Source: a virus
Strand: one strand, 5' to 3'
IMG/VR virus record: IMGVR_UViG_3300018432_000024
Coordinates: 1-41,369 of that record
Length of the DNA: 41,369 nt
The translations under genes and the position numbers were made by a program. A model generated the notes under the pieces. The model was given only the letters and a program-made list of their open reading frames with translations. It ran no database searches and was not told the origin of the DNA. Shown here piece after piece: positions 643-23,886 of this stretch. The stretch's first letter is position 1. Every line of letters begins with the position of its first letter.

Positions 643-1179
643 TTAGGATTCTTCTTCACGTTCTAGTTTACCCAGCCGAGAAACGAGGAGGCTTCTGTCT
701 CTCTTGGAGGAGTTACAGGACAGACACGCGGTGGTTAGATTGCTCCATGAATCATCAAAAGATTTACTGATCGGGTCTATGTGATCCAGGCTTAGTTTAT
801 TGGTTGACCCGCAGTAGGAGCACCAATCATTGCGAATAAATATTGCATATTGTTCCCGTGCGTACCAGCAGCCCGAGTTCGCATTTAGTGTTACTGTTCT
901 CCGTCTATGGCCTTCTGCCCTGCGGATTGCCCTACCTTGTGCGGTTTGGACACGTCTTTGACGGCTCTCGCGTTTTAACTGCCGAACCCTTTCAATATTT
1001 TCTCGGTCCCATTTCCTCTTGTTGGCACCTTCTCGATCTTTGTTTCGCTTGTAGTAATCTTTTCTTCTCTCCGCCGCGCAGACGGTGCACTCTCGTTTGT
1101 ATCCATCTGAGGAGTAACGATCTTTATGAAAACTGCTTGCCTCCTTCACGTCTCCGCACCTAAAACAAGCCTTCTCCAA
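643..1179 (-). CDS. HNH homing-type endonuclease with N-terminal zinc finger
   Basis: 178 residues from a TTG start at 1179, inside the 3' end of the glycosyltransferase gene (20-nt overlap). Residues about 5-35 form a treble-clef-like finger (CFRCG, then F, then CTVC). The middle is very basic and helical, as in DNA-binding linkers. The C-terminus carries the HNH core: CSYCG, LSLDHIDPIS, NLTTACLSCNSSKRD. Free-standing HNH genes of this build are typical mobile genes of phages. The same finger type recurs at 16851-17549 and 12760-13044. The TTG start is chosen because the first Cys pair follows at once; a GAGG lies about 9 nt upstream. Confidence 0.85.
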   Translation of the reverse strand: MEKACFRCGDVKEASSFHKDRYSSDGYKRECTVCAAERRKDYYKRNKDREGANKRKWDRENIERVRQLKRESRQRRVQTAQGRAIRRAEGHRRRTVTLNANSGCWYAREQYAIFIRNDWCSYCGSTNKLSLDHIDPISKSFDDSWSNLTTACLSCNSSKRDRSLLVSRLGKLEREEES

Positions 1180-2304: not shown

Positions 2305-2378
2305 TGGCGCAGCCCGAGGGGCTTGAACCCTCATCTTCCGGTTTTGGAGACCGACGCTTTTCTTTAAGCTAGAGCTAC
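2305..2378 (-). tRNA. trnW: tRNA-Trp (anticodon CCA), 3' CCA encoded
   Basis: Read on the minus strand: acceptor GTAGCTC (2378-2372) pairs with GGGCTGC (2315-2309), using two G-T pairs. The D stem is GCTT/AAGC with a short six-base loop. The anticodon stem TCGGT/ACCGG carries loop CTCCAAA, giving anticodon CCA at 2347-2345. The T arm is GAGGG-TTCAAGC-CCCTC. The discriminator G (2308) is followed by a genomic CCA (2307-2305). Actinophages often carry tRNA-Trp. The D loop is short and lacks the usual GG. Confidence 0.82.
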
Positions 2379-4301: not shown

Positions 4302-4769
4302 TTAATAGCGACCGTTACCCTCCGAAGCGGATGCTAAAAACTGTTTAGTTCGGGGCTTAGGCGGACTTGCCCACTCAGAAACCAACTTCCCTCTTGCCCG
4401 AAACCATCTGACTCGCACCGCGGCGGGGGTTGTGTTTAGGCGGTAAGCGATGACTTCCGCATAACTCCCGTGGCTGTATCCCCCGTCACAGATACAAGCT
4501 ACTACTTCGGTTTCAGCTGGGGAGAGGCCTGCGATGAAAGAAACTTCAGCTACGAAGCCACTAACAGAGGCAAGGGCCGAAGTGTACTGAGGTTCCTGCT
4601 CTGCTAACTCCACTAGGTCTTCATGGGGTAGGAGTATATCTCTCTTCCCGTTGTGTCTCTCTATCTGAGGCATATAGCCTAAGATGTCATCTGCGGTGGC
4701 TTCTAGGGGGTTTAAGCCGCGTTTCTCGCATTCTAGCACCCATCCGCAGCCCAGTTCTTCATTCTTCAT
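4302..4769 (-). CDS. Sigma region 4-like helix-turn-helix protein
   Basis: 155 residues. The C-terminal part (about 83-133) reads LSPAETEVVACI...SYAEVIAYRLNTTPAAVRVRWFRARGKL. This follows sigma factor region 4 and LuxR-type HTH proteins: a first helix, then [S/A]YxEhA, turn, and the recognition helix TPAAVRVRWFRARGKL. No region 2 is visible, so it is not a complete sigma factor. It could be a promoter-binding activator or an anti-host regulator. The start (TAATG) overlaps the stop of the FtsK-like gene, so the two are coupled. It is the last gene of its unit. Confidence 0.68.
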   Translation of the reverse strand: MKNEELGCGWVLECEKRGLNPLEATADDILGYMPQIERHNGKRDILLPHEDLVELAEQEPQYTSALASVSGFVAEVSFIAGLSPAETEVVACICDGGYSHGSYAEVIAYRLNTTPAAVRVRWFRARGKLVSEWASPPKPRTKQFLASASEGNGRY

Positions 4770-6319
4770 TACGCCCCCTTAAATGCCTCGTAGGATAACT
4801 TCTCTAAGTATGTCGTCTTATACCGGTTAATGATTTCTGTCTTGTTCTCGGTGTCCATAAGGAAGACGCTTTGGAACCGGTTCGGTGTCGGGTCCTCTAT
4901 AACTGCCCGGAACTCTCCAGTCTTTAGTGTATTGGTTGCCCAGCCCTGGGTGTGTAGTTCCTTCAGTAGGGTTCTGGACCCATGAACGTCTTGCTTCATT
5001 GCTATTGTAGCATGGAACTGGGAACGTGTTTCAGTAACACCAAGGTCTCTCATGGATCCGTTTTGCGAGAGGGCGAGGAGAATGAGCCGGGCTTTCCTAG
5101 CTCTCTTAGCAAGTCCTTCATACTGCTTGTTGAACTTGGCCCCACCTTGTCTCACTAACTCAGGGAACTCGTCTATTATGAACCAGATCGCCGGGCCCAT
5201 GTCATACACAGCTGGAGCTTTAGGATCTTCGACTTTCCTAGCGCCTACGGCCTGTTCTCTTGCTTCACAGACCCTAAGTACCCCGTCTAGGAGGGCCAGG
5301 GATTCGTCAAGCGTCTTTGCCAAGGGTGCCGCCAGCACGGGTTCCCAGAGGGACAACGTGGCCCCTGAGGCCATGTCACTACCAAATATGCACATCTCCG
5401 GATCAGCGTGGACATAGGCGAGGATACTTTCCCCGAATTCGCTCTTTCCGGATCCACTTTGTCCGACTACTAGGGTGTGTTTGGGTTCGTGGAGGTAGGT
5501 TTGGTTATTGGGTCCAACCCCCATGAGCACGGGCCATTCGACGGGAAGCCGGGAGTCAATCAGCGGGTGGGGGATAGGTTCGCTGATAGGATTATCTTTG
5601 ATGTAGATTTCCACATCAGTAGCTAGATCCGCAGATTCCACGATAGAGACGGAACCAGGTCGTAAAGATAGAACACTCTCTAGCCGCCGTCTTGTTCCAT
5701 AAACGTTGTGGGGGTCTTGTCCGGGTCGTAGACGAACTACCAGCCGGGGAACTCCGCGAGGAGTTGTCACGTCGATAAGGTGCGAGCCTTTAAATTCGTC
5801 AATTATTTCTGCGACCAGGATCCACCGATCGACGTACCTATTTGCGGATCCAGTTACGGTATACCTTTTGTTCGTCACTCGTATAACGGATAGCGTTAAA
5901 CTCAGGAGAAAGTACGTTATGAGGAAGGATCTGGGTAGGAGGGAGGCTTGAACGATCGCGATAGAACAGCCAGCTGTGAAGAGAACTAGGGAAACGTAGG
6001 CTCTTTCTGCGAGGCCGTCTAGGCGCTTCTCAACTCCTTTATCGAATTTCTTGGGTGAGATTTTAGAGACGGGTGGGCCGACGTGTTCCCCCCAGCCTGC
6101 GACGCCGATAACGAAGAAGGCGGTGATGAGATTTGTTAGCCAAATGTAGTCAGGGAGGACATAGTGCAAGTACACCCCAGCTGCAATTGGCAGGGCGAGG
6201 GCCGCTAGATACTTCCAGGTTTTCTTTATTTTCCTGGTGTACCTAGCGGCTCTGTTGAGTAACCATTTGACTATCTCGTATCGGAGAAGGTCATCGGTTA
6301 TGCTCTTGTTCCCCGCCAT
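4769..6319 (-). CDS. Membrane-anchored FtsK/SpoIIIE-like DNA translocase
   Basis: 516 residues. Four hydrophobic segments (about 36-55, 58-76, 107-127, 131-146) anchor the N-terminus. A linker follows, then an FtsK-type motor: Walker A GQSGSGKS (286-293) and Walker B IWFIIDE (378-384), then KRARKARLILLALSQ. The layout and the SGSGKSE loop resemble TraB/FtsK-like transfer ATPases of actinobacterial plasmids and integrative elements more than a packaging terminase. No winged-helix gamma domain is obvious. SD AGGGAAG precedes the ATG. It is followed by an HTH gene and preceded by a zinc ribbon and a YdjM-like protein. It may move DNA at the membrane (transfer, segregation or injection); the role is inferred. 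Confidence 0.85.
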   Translation of the reverse strand: MAGNKSITDDLLRYEIVKWLLNRAARYTRKIKKTWKYLAALALPIAAGVYLHYVLPDYIWLTNLITAFFVIGVAGWGEHVGPPVSKISPKKFDKGVEKRLDGLAERAYVSLVLFTAGCSIAIVQASLLPRSFLITYFLLSLTLSVIRVTNKRYTVTGSANRYVDRWILVAEIIDEFKGSHLIDVTTPRGVPRLVVRLRPGQDPHNVYGTRRRLESVLSLRPGSVSIVESADLATDVEIYIKDNPISEPIPHPLIDSRLPVEWPVLMGVGPNNQTYLHEPKHTLVVGQSGSGKSEFGESILAYVHADPEMCIFGSDMASGATLSLWEPVLAAPLAKTLDESLALLDGVLRVCEAREQAVGARKVEDPKAPAVYDMGPAIWFIIDEFPELVRQGGAKFNKQYEGLAKRARKARLILLALSQNGSMRDLGVTETRSQFHATIAMKQDVHGSRTLLKELHTQGWATNTLKTGEFRAVIEDPTPNRFQSVFLMDTENKTEIINRYKTTYLEKLSYEAFKGA

Positions 6320-12759: not shown

Positions 12760-13044
12760 CTATTTCCTTTTCTGACACTGTTTACAAACACCGCCTATAC
12801 CCTCCACAGAGCCGGGGTTTTTAGTAAAATTCTTAGGGTCTTTCAGTGTCCTGCACTTAATGCAACGCTTCGGTGTATGGATTAGGTGGGGGTTATTTTG
12901 GTGATGGAGCTTATTCTTCTCCCGTATCGCCTTTGATCGAGTCGCGTGACACCTTTTACAAGACGATGAGTGCTTACCTGTGTTCTTCAAAAAGTAGTAT
13001 TCGGACTCGCTCTTAACCTGGTCGCACACTTTACATTGTTTCAT
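12760..13044 (-). CDS. Double treble-clef zinc finger protein without nuclease core
   Basis: 94 residues from the ATG at 13044. It holds two fingers of one kind: CKVCDQVK...CKRCH (about 4-37) and CIKCRTLKDPKNF...CKQCQKRK (about 66-91), joined by a basic linker. The same finger occurs in the two HNH nucleases at 643 and 16851, but no HNH motif is present here. It may be a regulator or a nuclease remnant. It lies beside the iteron origin, and its promoter overlaps the first iteron, so a link to replication control is possible but unproven. A start at 13128 would add an unlikely hydrophobic extension across the iterons. Confidence 0.68.
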   Translation of the reverse strand: MKQCKVCDQVKSESEYYFLKNTGKHSSSCKRCHATRSKAIREKNKLHHQNNPHLIHTPKRCIKCRTLKDPKNFTKNPGSVEGIGGVCKQCQKRK

Positions 13045-13050
13045 GGGTTT

Positions 13051-13080
13051 AGGGTACCGCAAACCCGGCGGGGTAGATAA
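13051..13080 (-). promoter_or_regulatory. Possible leaderless promoter overlapping an iteron
   Basis: Minus strand: TACCCT (13056-13051), six bases, then the ATG at 13044, with no SD. The best -35 is TTATCT at 18 nt (13080-13075), which lies inside the iteron 13071-13080. The -35 is weak. Confidence 0.35.
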
Positions 13081-13321
13081 CAGGGGTAGATAAATGAAGT
13101 AGATAAGCTTTTTTGATTCGGTTTCCACTTCTTTGTGTTCAGCTCAACATTGCATGAGGAACGAATTGACTTTTAGAGCCTTATCTACCCATCTTATCTA
13201 CCCTTTACTATATTTTACCTGTTCAGAGACTTATAAATATTAAATAATAACTAAAAATAGAGTAAATAGGGGTAGATAAGAAAGCTGGAAGGGTAGATAA
13301 ATGGCCGGGAGGGGTAGATTA
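13071..13321. repeat. Iteron array, putative replication origin
   Basis: The 10-mer GGGTAGATAA occurs on the plus strand at 13071, 13084, 13270 and 13291, with near copies at 13097 (AAGTAGATAA) and 13312 (GGGTAGATTA). It occurs inverted at 13181-13190 and 13194-13203. Spacing is regular: 13 bp in the left cluster and the inverted pair, 21 bp (two helical turns) in the right cluster. An A+T-rich block (about 13204-13268) separates the inverted pair from the right cluster. Iterons plus an A+T-rich unwinding block beside a prim-pol/helicase gene are the usual make-up of a plasmid or P4-type origin. Confidence 0.8.
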
Positions 13322-13360
13322 GTAAAGGCCCCGAGTCTGAATAACCCCGAGGCCTTTACT
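13321..13360 (-). terminator. Terminator after the prim-pol/helicase gene
   Basis: AGTAAAGGCC (13321-13330) and GGCCTTTACT (13351-13360), a 10-bp stem with a 20-nt loop, 16 nt past the stop of the leftward gene. It shields the iteron region from read-through; it is symmetrical and could work both ways. Confidence 0.65.
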
Positions 13361-13376: not shown

Positions 13377-15689
13377 TCACTCGCTGGTCCATCCTTGCGG
13401 TCCTAGCGTTTCATTATGATTGGCCATAAACCCGTCTTCGGACACTCGAACCTTGAACCCACGGTACTTCCGCTGCCCCTTCTGGAGGGTATGGGTCACT
13501 AAGCCGGGGTGATGCTCATGTAGGTAGTTCTCCAGCTCCTTGTAGAAGGTCCTAGAACCCCTCGGGTTGCCTCCGGTTTCGTTCTCTCCTTGGCGGTAAT
13601 GCTGGTAGAGACCCTTACCCCAAACCGCTCCGGCCTCGTCAAGCACTAACTGATGCTGTACATAGTTGGCAACGCTGTCTACTTGTTCCCGCCAGACGGC
13701 CTTAGCTTCAGCAAACGCAGACTTATCAAAGCCGCCACGCTTACGAAGTCGTTGCAATGCTGATACGGCCTTCACTAGCACCCCCCTTTGCAGAGCCGGG
13801 TCATTCGGCATGATATCCCGCCAATAGGTGTCTTCTATCTTTCCGCCTTGGTTGAATCGCTTCTCGAATTGCATCACTAACCAGCGGTCCCAGAACCCTG
13901 AGTCATTGCTCTCGGTCGCCGGCATGGCGTTGAAGCTGGCTACGTTGAACACATTGGGCCGGAAGCTGAATCCATCCCTTCCCTTGTGTTCTGCGTAGAT
14001 GGCATCCCCTGCTACGACGCTCTTGAACACGCCGATGTTTCTCATTGTTTCTGCACCTACGTCACCGGCTGCGTTGAGCAGGACGCCGTGGAGTTTGACT
14101 TTGTTGAATCGTTCCACCATGGCTTGAGGGGCGATGCTTGTCAGGTTCTCGCTGCCTACGAGTGCGGACATGATGTTAATGAAGGTGCTCTTTCCGCCGC
14201 CACCTGCGCCGCTGAATGCTAGCGCCACTTTGAGGTCGTGACGGGGCGAGATTGCATACCCTATGAGTTCCCAGGCGTGTGGAACCATTTCTTCTTTGAG
14301 GGTGTTGCTCATCCATTCATCCACTTTGTCACAGGTGGAGTCTGGTGCCCAGGCTACTGGAAGGTGGTTGACGACGAATACATCTGGGGTCCGAGGCCGT
14401 AGCTCCCCGGTCTCCCAGTTCAGCAACCCGTTTTCTACGCTGATGTACTCCCTCGATACGTCTTCCTGTGTGATGGGGTCTGCGTATGCTAGTGCTGCTG
14501 TGTAGAGTTCTTCTGCCAGGCGCTTGGACATTTGGTTGCCGAGTTGATCTGACAGCCAGCGGTAGGCGACGGTGTATAAGTCTATTTCTTTCCAGCGGTC
14601 ATTCACCCAGGCGAAGACAACCCCGTTGCTGTCCTTGTACCTTTTTAGTGGGTGTTGGTTCATGAAGGTTTCACGAGCCATCTGTGTTTGTAGGTGCCCG
14701 CGCTCCCGTAGTAGGAGTTCAGGCCCTAGGCTGATTTCGCCTTCAAATACCCTGGCTAACGCGGTTTCGGTGACTCCGTCGCACTGGCACACGTCGCCTA
14801 GTGGCTTTTGTTGTGAGCGTACAGCTGCGTGTTCAAAGGTGTTTTTGATTTCGGTGCGGGCAGTTTGAGGCCGCGCTGCCCTAACGTATTCGCTGAAGCG
14901 CTTCCGCAACAGGGTTAGGGCTTCTATAGCACCTTTGTGCCCTTCTCTGCCGAGCATCATTCCTTGCAATGAATAGCTGTAGTAGTCGTCATGCCCTATG
15001 TGACTGCGCTTGTGCTGTGTCTCTATACGCGTAATGAAACGCTGGACGCTTTCACACGGCGGCTCGGGTAGGAAGGTGTCAAGCAGTTCTTTGGCTGGGA
15101 TGACGTCGACGTCAAGGAGTTCCCCGTTTTCCACTGCCAGGTGCTGTACCCATTCGGCCGGGAGGTAGGGGATTTCGTCTAGTGACGGGGGTTCGCTCAT
15201 TGGGTCGCCGTCAAGGTCGTACCACGTGTAGGGGGTTCCTGTTGATGGGTGGATTGAGGGCCAGCACACCATGAAGCGGTGGTGACGTTGCACAAGTTCA
15301 ATGCTGTCACGTGGCTTGCTCTGTAGCTCTAATGTGGGGTCGGCGATGCGATAAACATGCTGCCGTGATTTGCCTTGAGGATCCCTCGCGGTGCTAGTGA
15401 AGGTTTTGGGTAGAGCCTTACCAACCTGTTTCACGAGGTCTTCTAAATCTGCCGCCCCGCGTTTGTCGCCGTAGTTGTCGTCTACGTCGATGCTGATCCA
15501 GCCTTCAGCCCGTAATCCTAGGTTGTTGAATTCTTCACCTAGGTGCTGCCATTCTTGCATTTGGTCGGGGGTGACAGTGCCTTGTTGCCCTGTGGCTCCT
15601 GGTACGGGGAATTGTTTTCCTCGGACGGGGATGGGTTTCCACCCTAGTCGGGCATATAGGGCATAGTTTTCGGCGTAGCGCTTAGCCAT
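13377..15689 (-). CDS. Prim-pol / SF3 helicase replication protein (P4-type)
   Basis: 770 residues. The N-terminal prim-pol domain (about 1-180) shows ISIDVDD (68-71, metal site), SRQHVYR (H111) and HHRFMVCWPSIHPSTG. A middle region follows, then the D5/P4-type helicase: DVSREYISVENGLLNW (D5_N-like), Walker A GAGGGGKST (494-502), LNAAGDVGAE and the arginine-finger region GFWDRWLVMQFEKRF. Such proteins prime and unwind at iteron origins of plasmids, satellites and phages. It is the first leftward gene of the divergent control region, with an AAAGGG SD and a TATTCT promoter, and is followed by a terminator and the iterons it probably recognises. Confidence 0.93.
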   Translation of the reverse strand: MAKRYAENYALYARLGWKPIPVRGKQFPVPGATGQQGTVTPDQMQEWQHLGEEFNNLGLRAEGWISIDVDDNYGDKRGAADLEDLVKQVGKALPKTFTSTARDPQGKSRQHVYRIADPTLELQSKPRDSIELVQRHHRFMVCWPSIHPSTGTPYTWYDLDGDPMSEPPSLDEIPYLPAEWVQHLAVENGELLDVDVIPAKELLDTFLPEPPCESVQRFITRIETQHKRSHIGHDDYYSYSLQGMMLGREGHKGAIEALTLLRKRFSEYVRAARPQTARTEIKNTFEHAAVRSQQKPLGDVCQCDGVTETALARVFEGEISLGPELLLRERGHLQTQMARETFMNQHPLKRYKDSNGVVFAWVNDRWKEIDLYTVAYRWLSDQLGNQMSKRLAEELYTAALAYADPITQEDVSREYISVENGLLNWETGELRPRTPDVFVVNHLPVAWAPDSTCDKVDEWMSNTLKEEMVPHAWELIGYAISPRHDLKVALAFSGAGGGGKSTFINIMSALVGSENLTSIAPQAMVERFNKVKLHGVLLNAAGDVGAETMRNIGVFKSVVAGDAIYAEHKGRDGFSFRPNVFNVASFNAMPATESNDSGFWDRWLVMQFEKRFNQGGKIEDTYWRDIMPNDPALQRGVLVKAVSALQRLRKRGGFDKSAFAEAKAVWREQVDSVANYVQHQLVLDEAGAVWGKGLYQHYRQGENETGGNPRGSRTFYKELENYLHEHHPGLVTHTLQKGQRKYRGFKVRVSEDGFMANHNETLGPQGWTSE

Positions 15690-16678: not shown

Positions 16679-16849
16679 ATGAAACCGGTGATACTTAATA
16701 ATTTAGTACTCCAGGCCCGTGCAGAAGGCCGCTCAGTGGCTTGGTTGCGGCAAACCTTATTGGATATTGGAACTACCGAAGCCCTCGCCTGGTCAAATAG
16801 GTTATGGGACTCGGGCAAAGACTACCCGATACTTCGGAAGGTTAAGTAA
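16679..16849 (+). CDS. Small hypothetical protein before the HNH gene
   Basis: 56 residues (MKPVILNNLVLQARAEGRSV...), SD AGGAAGAG just upstream. Two helices (LVLQARAEGRSVAWLRQTLL, TTEALAWSNRLWD), possibly HTH-like. It ends one base before the HNH start. A longer HNH frame through this gene is the shadow. Confidence 0.62.
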   Translation: MKPVILNNLVLQARAEGRSVAWLRQTLLDIGTTEALAWSNRLWDSGKDYPILRKVK

Positions 16850-16850
16850 G

Positions 16851-17549
16851 ATGACGAGTAAGCAGTGTCTTTCCTGCTCGGAGACACTGCCTCTCGCCTC
16901 GTTCCCTAAAGATCGTACTAAGTCCGACGGGCACCTGAACCAGTGTAAAGCGTGCCGAAAAAATAGGGCCCTGGAATTGAGCGGCCCTTTGGACGAAGAG
17001 AAGCAATGTAACGATTGTGGCGAAGTTAAAGATAGAGACCAGTTCCACAGGTTAAAAACGGCTAAGGGCGGATTGCAAAGGAAATGTATTGACTGCCAAA
17101 CCAAGTTCCGGGCAACCAATGCACCGTTGTACAGGGCCATCAGGAAGAAGTATCGTGAATCCGAGGCGGGTAGGATCGTGGATTACCAGATAAACGCCAA
17201 GCGGCGGGCGTTGAAGGCCTCTTTACCCTTCATTCCCTACGATCCGGTGGACATCTACAACCGGGAAGCCGGTGTCTGCTATCTCTGTGGCTTTCCAGTG
17301 CATAAGTTTCACAAGAAGAAGGGTAAGATTGTTCGCTTCTTCCACGTAGAGCACATTATTCCCATCGCCGCTGACAGGGAGTTACTTGCTCTCCACGGCA
17401 TTGAGCATCCGGGGGATGTTCCTCATAATCTTTCCGTCGCTCACCCGACTTGTAACAGTAAAAAGAATAATAAGGTAACGGAAGAGACGATTGAGATCTA
17501 TAAGGAGTACCAGGAATTGTATGGGGTCTATGATACAATAGAAGAGTAA
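16851..17549 (+). CDS. HNH endonuclease with two N-terminal zinc fingers
   Basis: 232 residues from the ATG at 16851 (MTSKQCLSCSETLPLASF). Two treble-clef fingers occur in tandem (CLSC...CKAC and CNDCGEVKDRDQF...CIDC), then a basic linker, then the HNH core: CYLCGFPV, VEHIIPIAADRE, NLSVAHPTCNSKKNNK. It is probably a mobile homing-type nuclease. The fingers match those at 643-1179 and 12760-13044. It sits between early small genes and the exonuclease gene. The start inside a longer frame is chosen because the finger begins there and AAGG precedes it. Confidence 0.87.
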   Translation: MTSKQCLSCSETLPLASFPKDRTKSDGHLNQCKACRKNRALELSGPLDEEKQCNDCGEVKDRDQFHRLKTAKGGLQRKCIDCQTKFRATNAPLYRAIRKKYRESEAGRIVDYQINAKRRALKASLPFIPYDPVDIYNREAGVCYLCGFPVHKFHKKKGKIVRFFHVEHIIPIAADRELLALHGIEHPGDVPHNLSVAHPTCNSKKNNKVTEETIEIYKEYQELYGVYDTIEE

Positions 17550-19402: not shown

Positions 19403-19842
19403 ACAAGTTTGTGTGGTCCCTGCAACTCAGCACCAACCCCCCTCATTTCGATGATCATGAGATTCTAGGGTGGTTCGCCACCAGGGCCGAAGCTCAAGAC
19501 GAGTTCCTCCGGCAGGTAAAACTATTGCCCCTTGGGCCTAACGACAATGGAATCTGGGACACCCATTTAACCCTCGTTAAGCACACTGAAGACGTTTACG
19601 TTGGCGATTTGAACGGGTATGCGGAAGCAAGCACCGCCGAGGATGATTCTTTCATTTCTGATGATAATGGGATCTATACCTTCCATACGAATGGTGAGGT
19701 GTATGAAACCACGGGGGAGCTTCTTGCTTCTCTCGAACAGACACCCCTCGGCTGGGACTATCGAACCGATCAACTAATATTCAGAGACGCATTAGGGAAC
19801 ACTGTCGTAGGCGAGGAAGAAGCAGATGAAACCGATAATTGA
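19399..19842 (+). CDS. Hypothetical protein with micro-protein module
   Basis: 147 residues. The N-terminal part shows the shared layout (KFVWSLQLSTN, ILGWFATRAEAQDEFLRQV, THLTLVKHTED); the C-terminal part is acidic and strand-rich (GIYTFHTNGEVYETTGELLASLEQ). It overlaps the muramidase start by 17 nt. No family recognised. Confidence 0.68.
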   Translation: MNKFVWSLQLSTNPPHFDDHEILGWFATRAEAQDEFLRQVKLLPLGPNDNGIWDTHLTLVKHTEDVYVGDLNGYAEASTAEDDSFISDDNGIYTFHTNGEVYETTGELLASLEQTPLGWDYRTDQLIFRDALGNTVVGEEEADETDN

Positions 19843-20524
19843 TGTCAGTGAATACCAAGGCGATATTGATTGGTCTGAAGCGTCAAAGCACGTAGCGGGG
19901 GCTATCATCCGCCTGTCGTCTTGGCGGCTTAGCGATGGCGGAAATCGACTTGATCACAAGGCGCAGGTGAATGCCTACGAGGTGTTAGACGCAGGGCTGC
20001 CTATTGGTGCCTATGTTCGGGCAAATCCTTGGGCCAATAGTCCTGCAACTGAGCTAATGCTGTTTCGTGCTTGGTGGGAGGACGTTGTCTTAGATAAGGT
20101 AGGGGACGACGACACTTCCAACCTGATCCTCACCCCCGCCATTGATATCGAACCCACTGATAAACCGGAGTTTGATGCCCTTGTAAACTGGCCCGAGTGG
20201 ATTAGAAGCTTTATTCAGCTTTGGAACGTAGCCACCGATTCAGCGCCCTTGATGCTGTACACCTCCGGATCCTTCTTTGACAGCAAATATGGTGGTGTGC
20301 TCGACATCCCGTTAAACGTGTCTTTTTGGGTAGGAGACGCAGCGGGATTCAACCACGCCCCTGATGCTGGAGGCAAAACCAAATGGGTATTTAGCGGCCG
20401 GACGGTGTTGCATCAGTATTCGCATAAGGGCACTATCCCAGGTATCAAGGGCGCAGTTGACCTAAACGCCGTTATGCCTTACACTCAAATTTACGATTTA
20501 GATTATCGGGGTCGAAGGGATTAG
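19826..20524 (+). CDS. GH25 muramidase (lysozyme)
   Basis: 232 residues. The GH25 fold is clear: IIDVSEYQGDIDW (D6), GAYVRANPW, PAIDIEPTD (D107, E109, the DxE catalytic pair), LMLYTSGSFF, and the closing VLHQYSHKGTIPGIKGAVDLNAVM. It should cleave peptidoglycan between MurNAc and GlcNAc. No cell wall-binding domain and no signal peptide is seen. It stands in the rightward early arm, apart from the amidase and holin, so it may act in lysis as a second enzyme or in another step of infection. Confidence 0.92.
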   Translation: MKPIIDVSEYQGDIDWSEASKHVAGAIIRLSSWRLSDGGNRLDHKAQVNAYEVLDAGLPIGAYVRANPWANSPATELMLFRAWWEDVVLDKVGDDDTSNLILTPAIDIEPTDKPEFDALVNWPEWIRSFIQLWNVATDSAPLMLYTSGSFFDSKYGGVLDIPLNVSFWVGDAAGFNHAPDAGGKTKWVFSGRTVLHQYSHKGTIPGIKGAVDLNAVMPYTQIYDLDYRGRRD

Positions 20525-23022: not shown

Positions 23023-23886
23023 TTAGTTTAAATCACCAAAGAGGCTGATACCAGCCGTGGTAAGACCCATTGGGTGCGGGGCTGCTTCTGGGTCTAGGCG
23101 GTATTCAATTTGAACCCCTACCGTGTACGAAGGAACAGCGATTTTCCACACAGCGTTCTCTGCGACCACTTCCGGACCGTGAATAGCTTCCTGACGGATA
23201 CCGGAGTCGTGTAGGAAATACACTTTAAACTCTGTGTCACCCCAGCCCGAGGATAGGTGAAGCCAGGACCTTTTAGTCAAGGCACTACCAGAGGAAGTTT
23301 CCCAGGGAATGGATATTGTTTGGTGATGTGATAATGGTTGAACTGAATGATTGATGATAGCCACTTCGCTATTTACCTCTGTTTCTTCAGGAGTTGTACC
23401 GTTAGCAGCGCGGGACATGACCACATCCCAGGGGAAACCAGGGCCGGGGTCCCAGTGGCTTCCGTCTTTCTTGCCGTTAGTGTATTCAATGTGTCCGATA
23501 ACGCCGGCTTCGTTGTTGGCGACTTGTTGGGCGGTGAGTTTCCTCAACGGGATTCCACGGGCCAAGCAGCGGGAACGAATCCATGCAGCAGCATGGTTCA
23601 ACATGCCTTGGTGATTCTTCAACCATTCTTCACGGGACCAGGCGGCGAAGCCACACAGTTCCAGGTTATCGCTCCGGCTGTTTCCGCTTCTCAGGGTCCA
23701 CGAAGCTCGGTTGTAAGGGACTAGATTGTCCATTAAGACGGAGTCGTCGGCGATGGCGTGGGAGCTGGAGTTTGTAGATTTTTCGAAATATTTTTTAAGG
23801 TTTGCGGCGGTTCTGGCCCCTTCAGCCGTGTGTATCACGACCCAGAGGACCCGAGCACCCTCGCGGGATGAATTATTTAGGGCCAT
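23023..23886 (-). CDS. Endolysin: PGRP/Ami_2-type amidase
   Basis: 287 residues. The catalytic N-terminal domain (about 1-160) shows VLWVVIHTAEG (H19), SSHAIADD (H43), VIGHIEY (H132) and GSHWDPGPGFPWD (D146), the zinc-amidase pattern that cuts MurNAc-L-Ala. The C-terminal part (about 190-287) is strand-rich (PWETSSGSALTKRSWLHLSSGW, VWKIAVPSYTVGVQIEYRLD) and is probably a wall-binding domain of unknown specificity. It lies between the collagen-like membrane protein and the holin. It has no signal peptide, so release through a holin is expected. Confidence 0.9.
   Translation of the reverse strand: MALNNSSREGARVLWVVIHTAEGARTAANLKKYFEKSTNSSSHAIADDSVLMDNLVPYNRASWTLRSGNSRSDNLELCGFAAWSREEWLKNHQGMLNHAAAWIRSRCLARGIPLRKLTAQQVANNEAGVIGHIEYTNGKKDGSHWDPGPGFPWDVVMSRAANGTTPEETEVNSEVAIINHSVQPLSHHQTISIPWETSSGSALTKRSWLHLSSGWGDTEFKVYFLHDSGIRQEAIHGPEVVAENAVWKIAVPSYTVGVQIEYRLDPEAAPHPMGLTTAGISLFGDLN

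Follow-up and report, generated by a model that had tools for sequence, protein, structure and literature searches.

What is the function of the eight copies of the word GGGTAGATAA that stand at 13071-13321, beside a prim-pol/SF3 helicase gene, in a virus record from IMG/VR? The record is analysed here in its entirety (41,369 bp) and is called the window. Comparisons of its sequence with those of relatives suggest that the block is very probably the replication origin of an actinophage-like virus, bound by the adjacent prim-pol initiator and used for lytic replication.

A clustered array in the gap behind the prim-pol gene

Six of the copies (iterons) are exact and two are degenerate but in register; six are oriented forward and two are inverted (Table 1). 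They are regularly spaced, with steps of 13 and 13 bp in the left forward group, 13 bp in the inverted middle pair, and 21 and 21 bp in the right forward group. An A+T-rich block, the proposed DNA unwinding element, separates the inverted pair from the triplet with 21-bp steps, and at every segment length tried (30-100 bp) it is both the least stable duplex and the stretch of highest A+T content in the 41 kb. The array is intergenic, lying in a 332-bp gap between the stop codon of the prim-pol gene (13377) and the ATG of an HNH-like ORF (13044), and a terminator-like hairpin, which abuts iteron 8, separates it from the prim-pol gene. In the number, orientation, and steps of the copies, in the A+T-rich block, and in the location just past the prim-pol/SF3 terminator, the preliminary description of the locus was accurate.

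Table 1. Features of the iteron block and its neighbouring genes (window positions)
Feature	Position	Strand	Basis or remark
Family-A DNA polymerase, 589 aa	10742..12511	-	PF00476 1.8e-28; PHROG 17 2e-75
Endonuclease VII/HNH-like ORF, 94 aa from ATG 13044	12760..13044	-	PHROG 1035 9.7e-10; PHROG 2340 8.7e-09
Iteron 1, GGGTAGATAA	13071..13080	+	exact match
Iteron 2, GGGTAGATAA	13084..13093	+	exact match, 13-bp step
Iteron 3, degenerate, AAGTAGATAA	13097..13106	+	13-bp step
Iteron 4, inverted	13181..13190	-	exact match
Iteron 5, inverted	13194..13203	-	exact match, 13-bp step
A+T-rich block, proposed DNA unwinding element	13204..13265 (about)		duplex stability, A+T content
Iteron 6, GGGTAGATAA	13270..13279	+	exact match
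Iteron 7, GGGTAGATAA	13291..13300	+	exact match, 21-bp step
Iteron 8, degenerate, GGGTAGATTA	13312..13321	+	21-bp step
Terminator-like hairpin 3' of prim-pol gene	13321..13360	-	inverted repeat
Prim-pol (AEP) + D5_N/SF3 helicase + C-terminal winged-helix-like tail, 770 aa	13377..15689	-	proposed initiator; profiles, alignment

The same description had held that so regular an array is unlikely to arise by chance and that its 10-mer should be confined to this block, and both expectations are borne out. All six exact copies of GGGTAGATAA in the 41,369-bp record sit within the block, and in 20 Markov genomes no 10-mer exceeds 2 copies per 300 bp, versus 6 in the window block. When up to 2 mismatches are allowed, 36 matches are found across the whole window versus 34.8 expected; the absence of an excess indicates that the signal consists of exact, clustered copies. 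The cumulative GC skew, which had been put forward as a further check, agrees in part: its minimum is at 14,066, about 0.75 kb from the array, but this minimum also goes with the change of transcribed strand near 15.7 kb, and the skew, because it follows gene orientation, is not counted as independent evidence.

The left iterons precede the HNH-like ORF by about 27-62 bp, where they could form the operator array of a transcription regulator, such as a repressor or autoregulator of HNH-polA, with no role in replication. An operator-like pattern of this kind is present in the unrelated contig L011 (IMGVR_UViG_3300005805_009491; G001:C1:10166-17375), whose ten exact copies of GGGGTAGATAA are scattered and mostly intergenic, several of them right after stop codons. 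In the window, however, the 10-mer occupies a single block with no copies at other promoters, and no obvious regulator was found beside the array. In addition, the array coincides with the weakest duplex of the locus, and the arrays of the relatives described below lie in coding linker DNA or directly behind a gene end, an unlikely site for an operator. An operator function is thus improbable. Contig L011 itself came from a search of viral contigs with the window's iteron pair, which gave four hits, three of them resembling chance matches. With its scattered copies, no prim-pol match and no convincing homologous protein, it was rejected as a relative of the window, and this operator-like element shares the window's word either through chance or through a host factor. 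A second repeated motif of L011, ACGGTGGTGGAA (8 copies of the core 9-mer), is promoter- or operator-like.

The prim-pol protein and the proposed mechanism

The 770-residue product of the adjacent gene is a primase domain fused to a D5_N/SF3 helicase. It matches PHROG 1156 (DNA primase) across residues 1-756 (5.9e-82), D5_N and DUF5906, as well as TIGR01613, the C-terminus of P4-family primases, above the cut-off; the SaPI5 primase-helicase 7ola is matched with a phmmer value of 6e-20. Alignment with relatives reveals the conserved AEP motifs and the Walker A motif. The C-terminal tail also aligns with family members, and in relatives it reads like the winged helix of the prim-pol family. An AlphaFold model, made from a 10-row alignment, is good in the AEP part only (whole-model mean pLDDT 53) and poor in the C-terminal half, which leaves sequence similarity as the basis for the winged helix. 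The top Foldseek matches of this model, AsfvPrimPol, poxvirus D5, and the SaPI5 primase-helicase, have low TM-scores but agree with the domain assignment.

Between the array and polA lies the small HNH-like ORF, one of three endonuclease VII/HNH-type ORFs of the same PHROG families (e.g. 1035, 5558) in the window (643-1179, 12760-13044, and 16719-17549). Elsewhere, the window encodes an FtsK/SpoIIIE-like ATPase (4769-6319; PHROG 1358, 2e-11), which is weakly similar to plasmid TraB and unusual for a phage of this size; one tRNA-Trp gene with anticodon CCA (2305-2378, minus strand); and two different endolysin-like genes (19826-20524 and 23023-23886).

Multiple short iterons thus stand in cis directly 3' of the gene for the proposed initiator, with an A+T-rich candidate unwinding region beside them. 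In the mechanism that we propose, the prim-pol/SF3-helicase would bind the GGGTAGATAA iterons, probably via its C-terminal winged-helix-like domain, and hexamers formed on the opposed iteron groups would open the intervening A+T-rich block. On the strands exposed in this way, the AEP domain would make primers, which would be extended by the family-A polymerase that the phage itself encodes just downstream.

The opposed iteron arms at 13071-13093 and 13181-13203, 23 nt long and 91% complementary, also allow another arrangement, in which a DNA stem-loop like that of pRN1 would be the functional element and the repeats would be its arms rather than independent binding sites. The window strand folds better than shuffles (z -2.45), and in pRN1 the origin is a stem-loop that lies on the 3' side of the prim-pol gene (PMC4234260). 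Indeed, both pRN1 ORF904 (AEP, SF3, and winged helix) and the protein of Bordetella phage BIP-1 have the same domain order as the window protein, with a cis element 3' of the prim-pol gene that has been proposed as an origin; in pRN1 this element is essential, and the authors proposed stem-loop recognition for this class of prim-pol (PMC4234260). Their finding that the pRN1 prim-pol showed no specific binding to its 3' region (PMC4234260) counts against the origin reading given here. However, a stem-loop does not need direct repeat triplets at 13 and 21 bp, and the arrays of the relatives, with 5-11 copies in mixed order and with irregular gaps, do not conform to one. The pRN1 type is a long stem-loop (about 100 nt) without iterons, whereas the window family has iteron arrays and the fold signal of the window is moderate. 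A stem-loop as the functional element is therefore very unlikely.

Arrays in split and fused relatives

A search with the prim-pol alignment yielded 54 viral loci; when a second alignment was used as well, it yielded 22 in genomes of bacteria (Nocardioides, Micromonospora, Kineosporia, Mycolicibacter, Labedaea, and others). In the non-redundant set of 52 prim-pol loci (75% identity), arrays, defined as at least 5 exact copies of a 9-mer in 350 bp, are present in 24, a count that exact matching may understate. The array starts between -150 and +400 bp from the 3' end of the prim-pol-helicase module in 22 of these 24 loci. With the window left out, 21 of 23 are in this position versus about 6% expected (binomial p about 7e-24 for random placement), and a comparable array is found in only 4 of 80 control polA loci. 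The weakest 40-bp duplex of the locus falls within the array block in 11 of 22 array loci, where about 1 is expected. About half of the 52 loci have no array of at least 5 copies, including Gordonia Emilbogenvirinae with the same AEP+SF3 protein, so the position rule is not universal. Four elements of Mycobacterium, Mycolicibacter, and Pseudokineococcus with other prim-pol proteins (L167, L175, L177, and L183) have arrays too; their steps are 9-12 bp and they begin 0-18 bp past the prim-pol stop codon.

The iteron word varies between phages (ACCCGTCAC, ACCCTCCAC, ACTGGTCAC, AACTGTCCG, CGCGTGCCC, GACGTGCAC, GGGATGCAC, and others), yet a layout of 21-, 19-, 11-, and 9-bp steps with opposed iteron groups recurs. 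In one relative, L124, three direct copies at 21 bp are followed by inverted ones, the same order as in the window when read in the direction of the prim-pol gene. Like the window's word, ACCCGTCAC is confined or nearly so to the block in four whole prophage records (8 of 9, 8 of 8, 11 of 13, and 7 of 7 copies). This variation bears on a further possibility, namely that the repeats are recognised chiefly by a protein of the host (DnaA or another DNA-binding factor) and that the prim-pol is loaded secondarily. The reverse complement of the window's word, TTATCTACCC, resembles the DnaA box TTATCCACA with two differences, and the same word is used by the apparently unrelated contig L011. Nevertheless, the words of the relatives (ACCCGTCAC and ACCCTCCAC to CGCGTGCCC among them) depart from the DnaA box, and words that differ between phages are what is expected of a phage-encoded initiator. 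We hence give a host factor as main ligand only a small chance.

Single-protein searches of viral contigs revealed no close relatives of the window's prim-pol, portal, or terminase; the polA relatives (8 records searched) gave no match to its prim-pol; and no relative was found with the window's own iteron word beside a prim-pol. Split primase-polA phages of Arthrobacter, Microbacterium, and Streptomyces, which matched from the helicase part onward only, have no strong array between primase and polA, Cen1621 being the only one with four copies of a 9-mer. An array, then, does not follow from synteny alone.

In 16 non-redundant loci, the prim-pol-helicase runs in frame into a family-A DNA polymerase, the counterpart of which in the window is the separate polA gene. 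These are L124 (4001-8704), L108, L110, L113, L119, L120, L125, L133, L137, L138, L146, L147, L164, L174, L176, and L178. Fused relatives that are prophages of isolates include those of Micromonospora zingiberis and Nocardioides sp. Root190. The fusion ORF, about 1,525-1,650 aa long, comprises prim-pol, SF3 helicase, and family-A DNA polymerase; in L124, PHROG 1156 matches residues 1-812 and PHROG 17 residues 992-1565. The polymerase part was checked with profiles in L124 and L108 and is assigned in the others from alignment and ORF length. At least 5 copies form an array in 13 of the 16, always inside the ORF at the junction, in linker-coding DNA, while L120 has four junction copies and L138 and L147 at most three. 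The iterons of these relatives are found on either strand and in each of the three frames, a distribution that points to selection at the DNA level. The junction frame is free of stops in 16 of 16 fused loci versus 40-80 stops in each other frame, an openness that is partly built in, since the set was picked by ORF length, although the in-frame joining to polA is not.

From these findings it is likely that one family of phages and prophages of actinobacteria has its origin iterons within the fused ORF, where the linker DNA would be both origin and coding sequence and one ORF of ~4.7 kb would hold origin, primase, helicase, and polymerase, the window being the split form. The window does look like a split form, having the same order, with the array intergenic and the HNH-like gene in between. 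At 80% coverage of the fusion, there is no record among 50,697 phages, and nothing was found in the open-access literature on a prim-pol-PolA fusion with an internal origin.

Lifestyle and known systems

The preliminary description had taken the array, together with the lack of an integrase, to suggest iteron-controlled replication and perhaps a plasmid-like prophage state. The lack of an integrase is confirmed, as no tyrosine or serine recombinase is detected in the six frames of the window, and extrachromosomal actinophage prophages with RepA or RNA origins do exist (PMC7157519). It is nonetheless unlikely that the array is a plasmid-type origin by which the phage persists as an extrachromosomal prophage. 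Where a classical iteron plasmid has a winged-helix initiator of the Rep_3/RepA type, the neighbour of the array is a prim-pol/SF3 protein, and no Rep_3/RepA-type protein or repressor is present among the window ORFs scanned. A plasmid-like extrachromosomal prophage would be expected to have ParABS or a comparable maintenance module, and the six frames of the window, a record that may be incomplete, contain no PF13614 (ParA) match. Furthermore, a tyrosine or serine recombinase is encoded by 8 of the 13 array-family relatives that were searched, and several relatives lie within bacterial contigs 0.3-1.4 Mb long; possession of an array is therefore no predictor of extrachromosomal lysogeny. Of the earlier proposal, the iteron origin beside the prim-pol/SF3 gene stands and the plasmid-like prophage does not: the array, which would serve genome replication, is not evidence for that state, and the window phage may simply be virulent.

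The origin reading is supported because the array is confined to one site, holds the weakest duplex, keeps its position in relatives, and has precedents in P4 and Sfi21; we infer from these the identity of the binding protein, the melting, the direction, and the origin activity itself. For a group of phages and prophages of actinobacteria, this reading offers a candidate rule by which origins may be found, namely to search just 3' of the prim-pol-helicase module. It also suggests that iteron arrays can accompany prim-pol initiators of the AEP type, for which the earlier proposal was stem-loops (PMC4234260). In the fused relatives, a single ORF would supply the origin, the primase, the helicase, and the polymerase of a compact candidate replicon. 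This makes the specificity between initiator and origin testable, as the iterons have diverged, the architecture is conserved, and there is one adjacent candidate DNA-binding domain.

Among known systems, lambdoid phages resemble the fused relatives in that the initiator gene, O, has iterons and an A+T-rich region within its own coding sequence (PMC7466680). In contrast, the window array is intergenic, and the array of the fused relatives encodes a helicase-polymerase linker rather than part of an O-like protein. In P4, as in the window, a primase-SF3 helicase gene (alpha) is followed by a terminator and by short repeats (8-10 bp) of mixed orientation directly 3' of the gene; these form crr, a 300-bp block with type 1 repeats (NC_001609 annotation). 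P4 differs in that its alpha primase is TOPRIM (PMC4234260) whereas that of the window is AEP, in its unrelated repeat sequence, and in its need for a further block of repeats, ori, which lies about 5 kb away and of which no counterpart was seen in the window. Streptococcus phage Sfi21 has an annotated 302-bp non-coding origin with a strongly A+T-rich core directly 3' of a D5/SF3-family primase gene, although the protein is shorter (382 aa) and matches in its helicase part only, and the repeats are weaker, with no 9-mer above 2 copies. SaPI origins have repeats flanking an A+T-rich stretch. The SaPI primase-helicase (7ola/7om0) is homologous in its SF3 helicase part but belongs to a satellite island of Firmicutes. 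The window is consistent with a variant of the P4/Sfi21 kind, in which an AEP-type prim-pol is combined with an iteron array.
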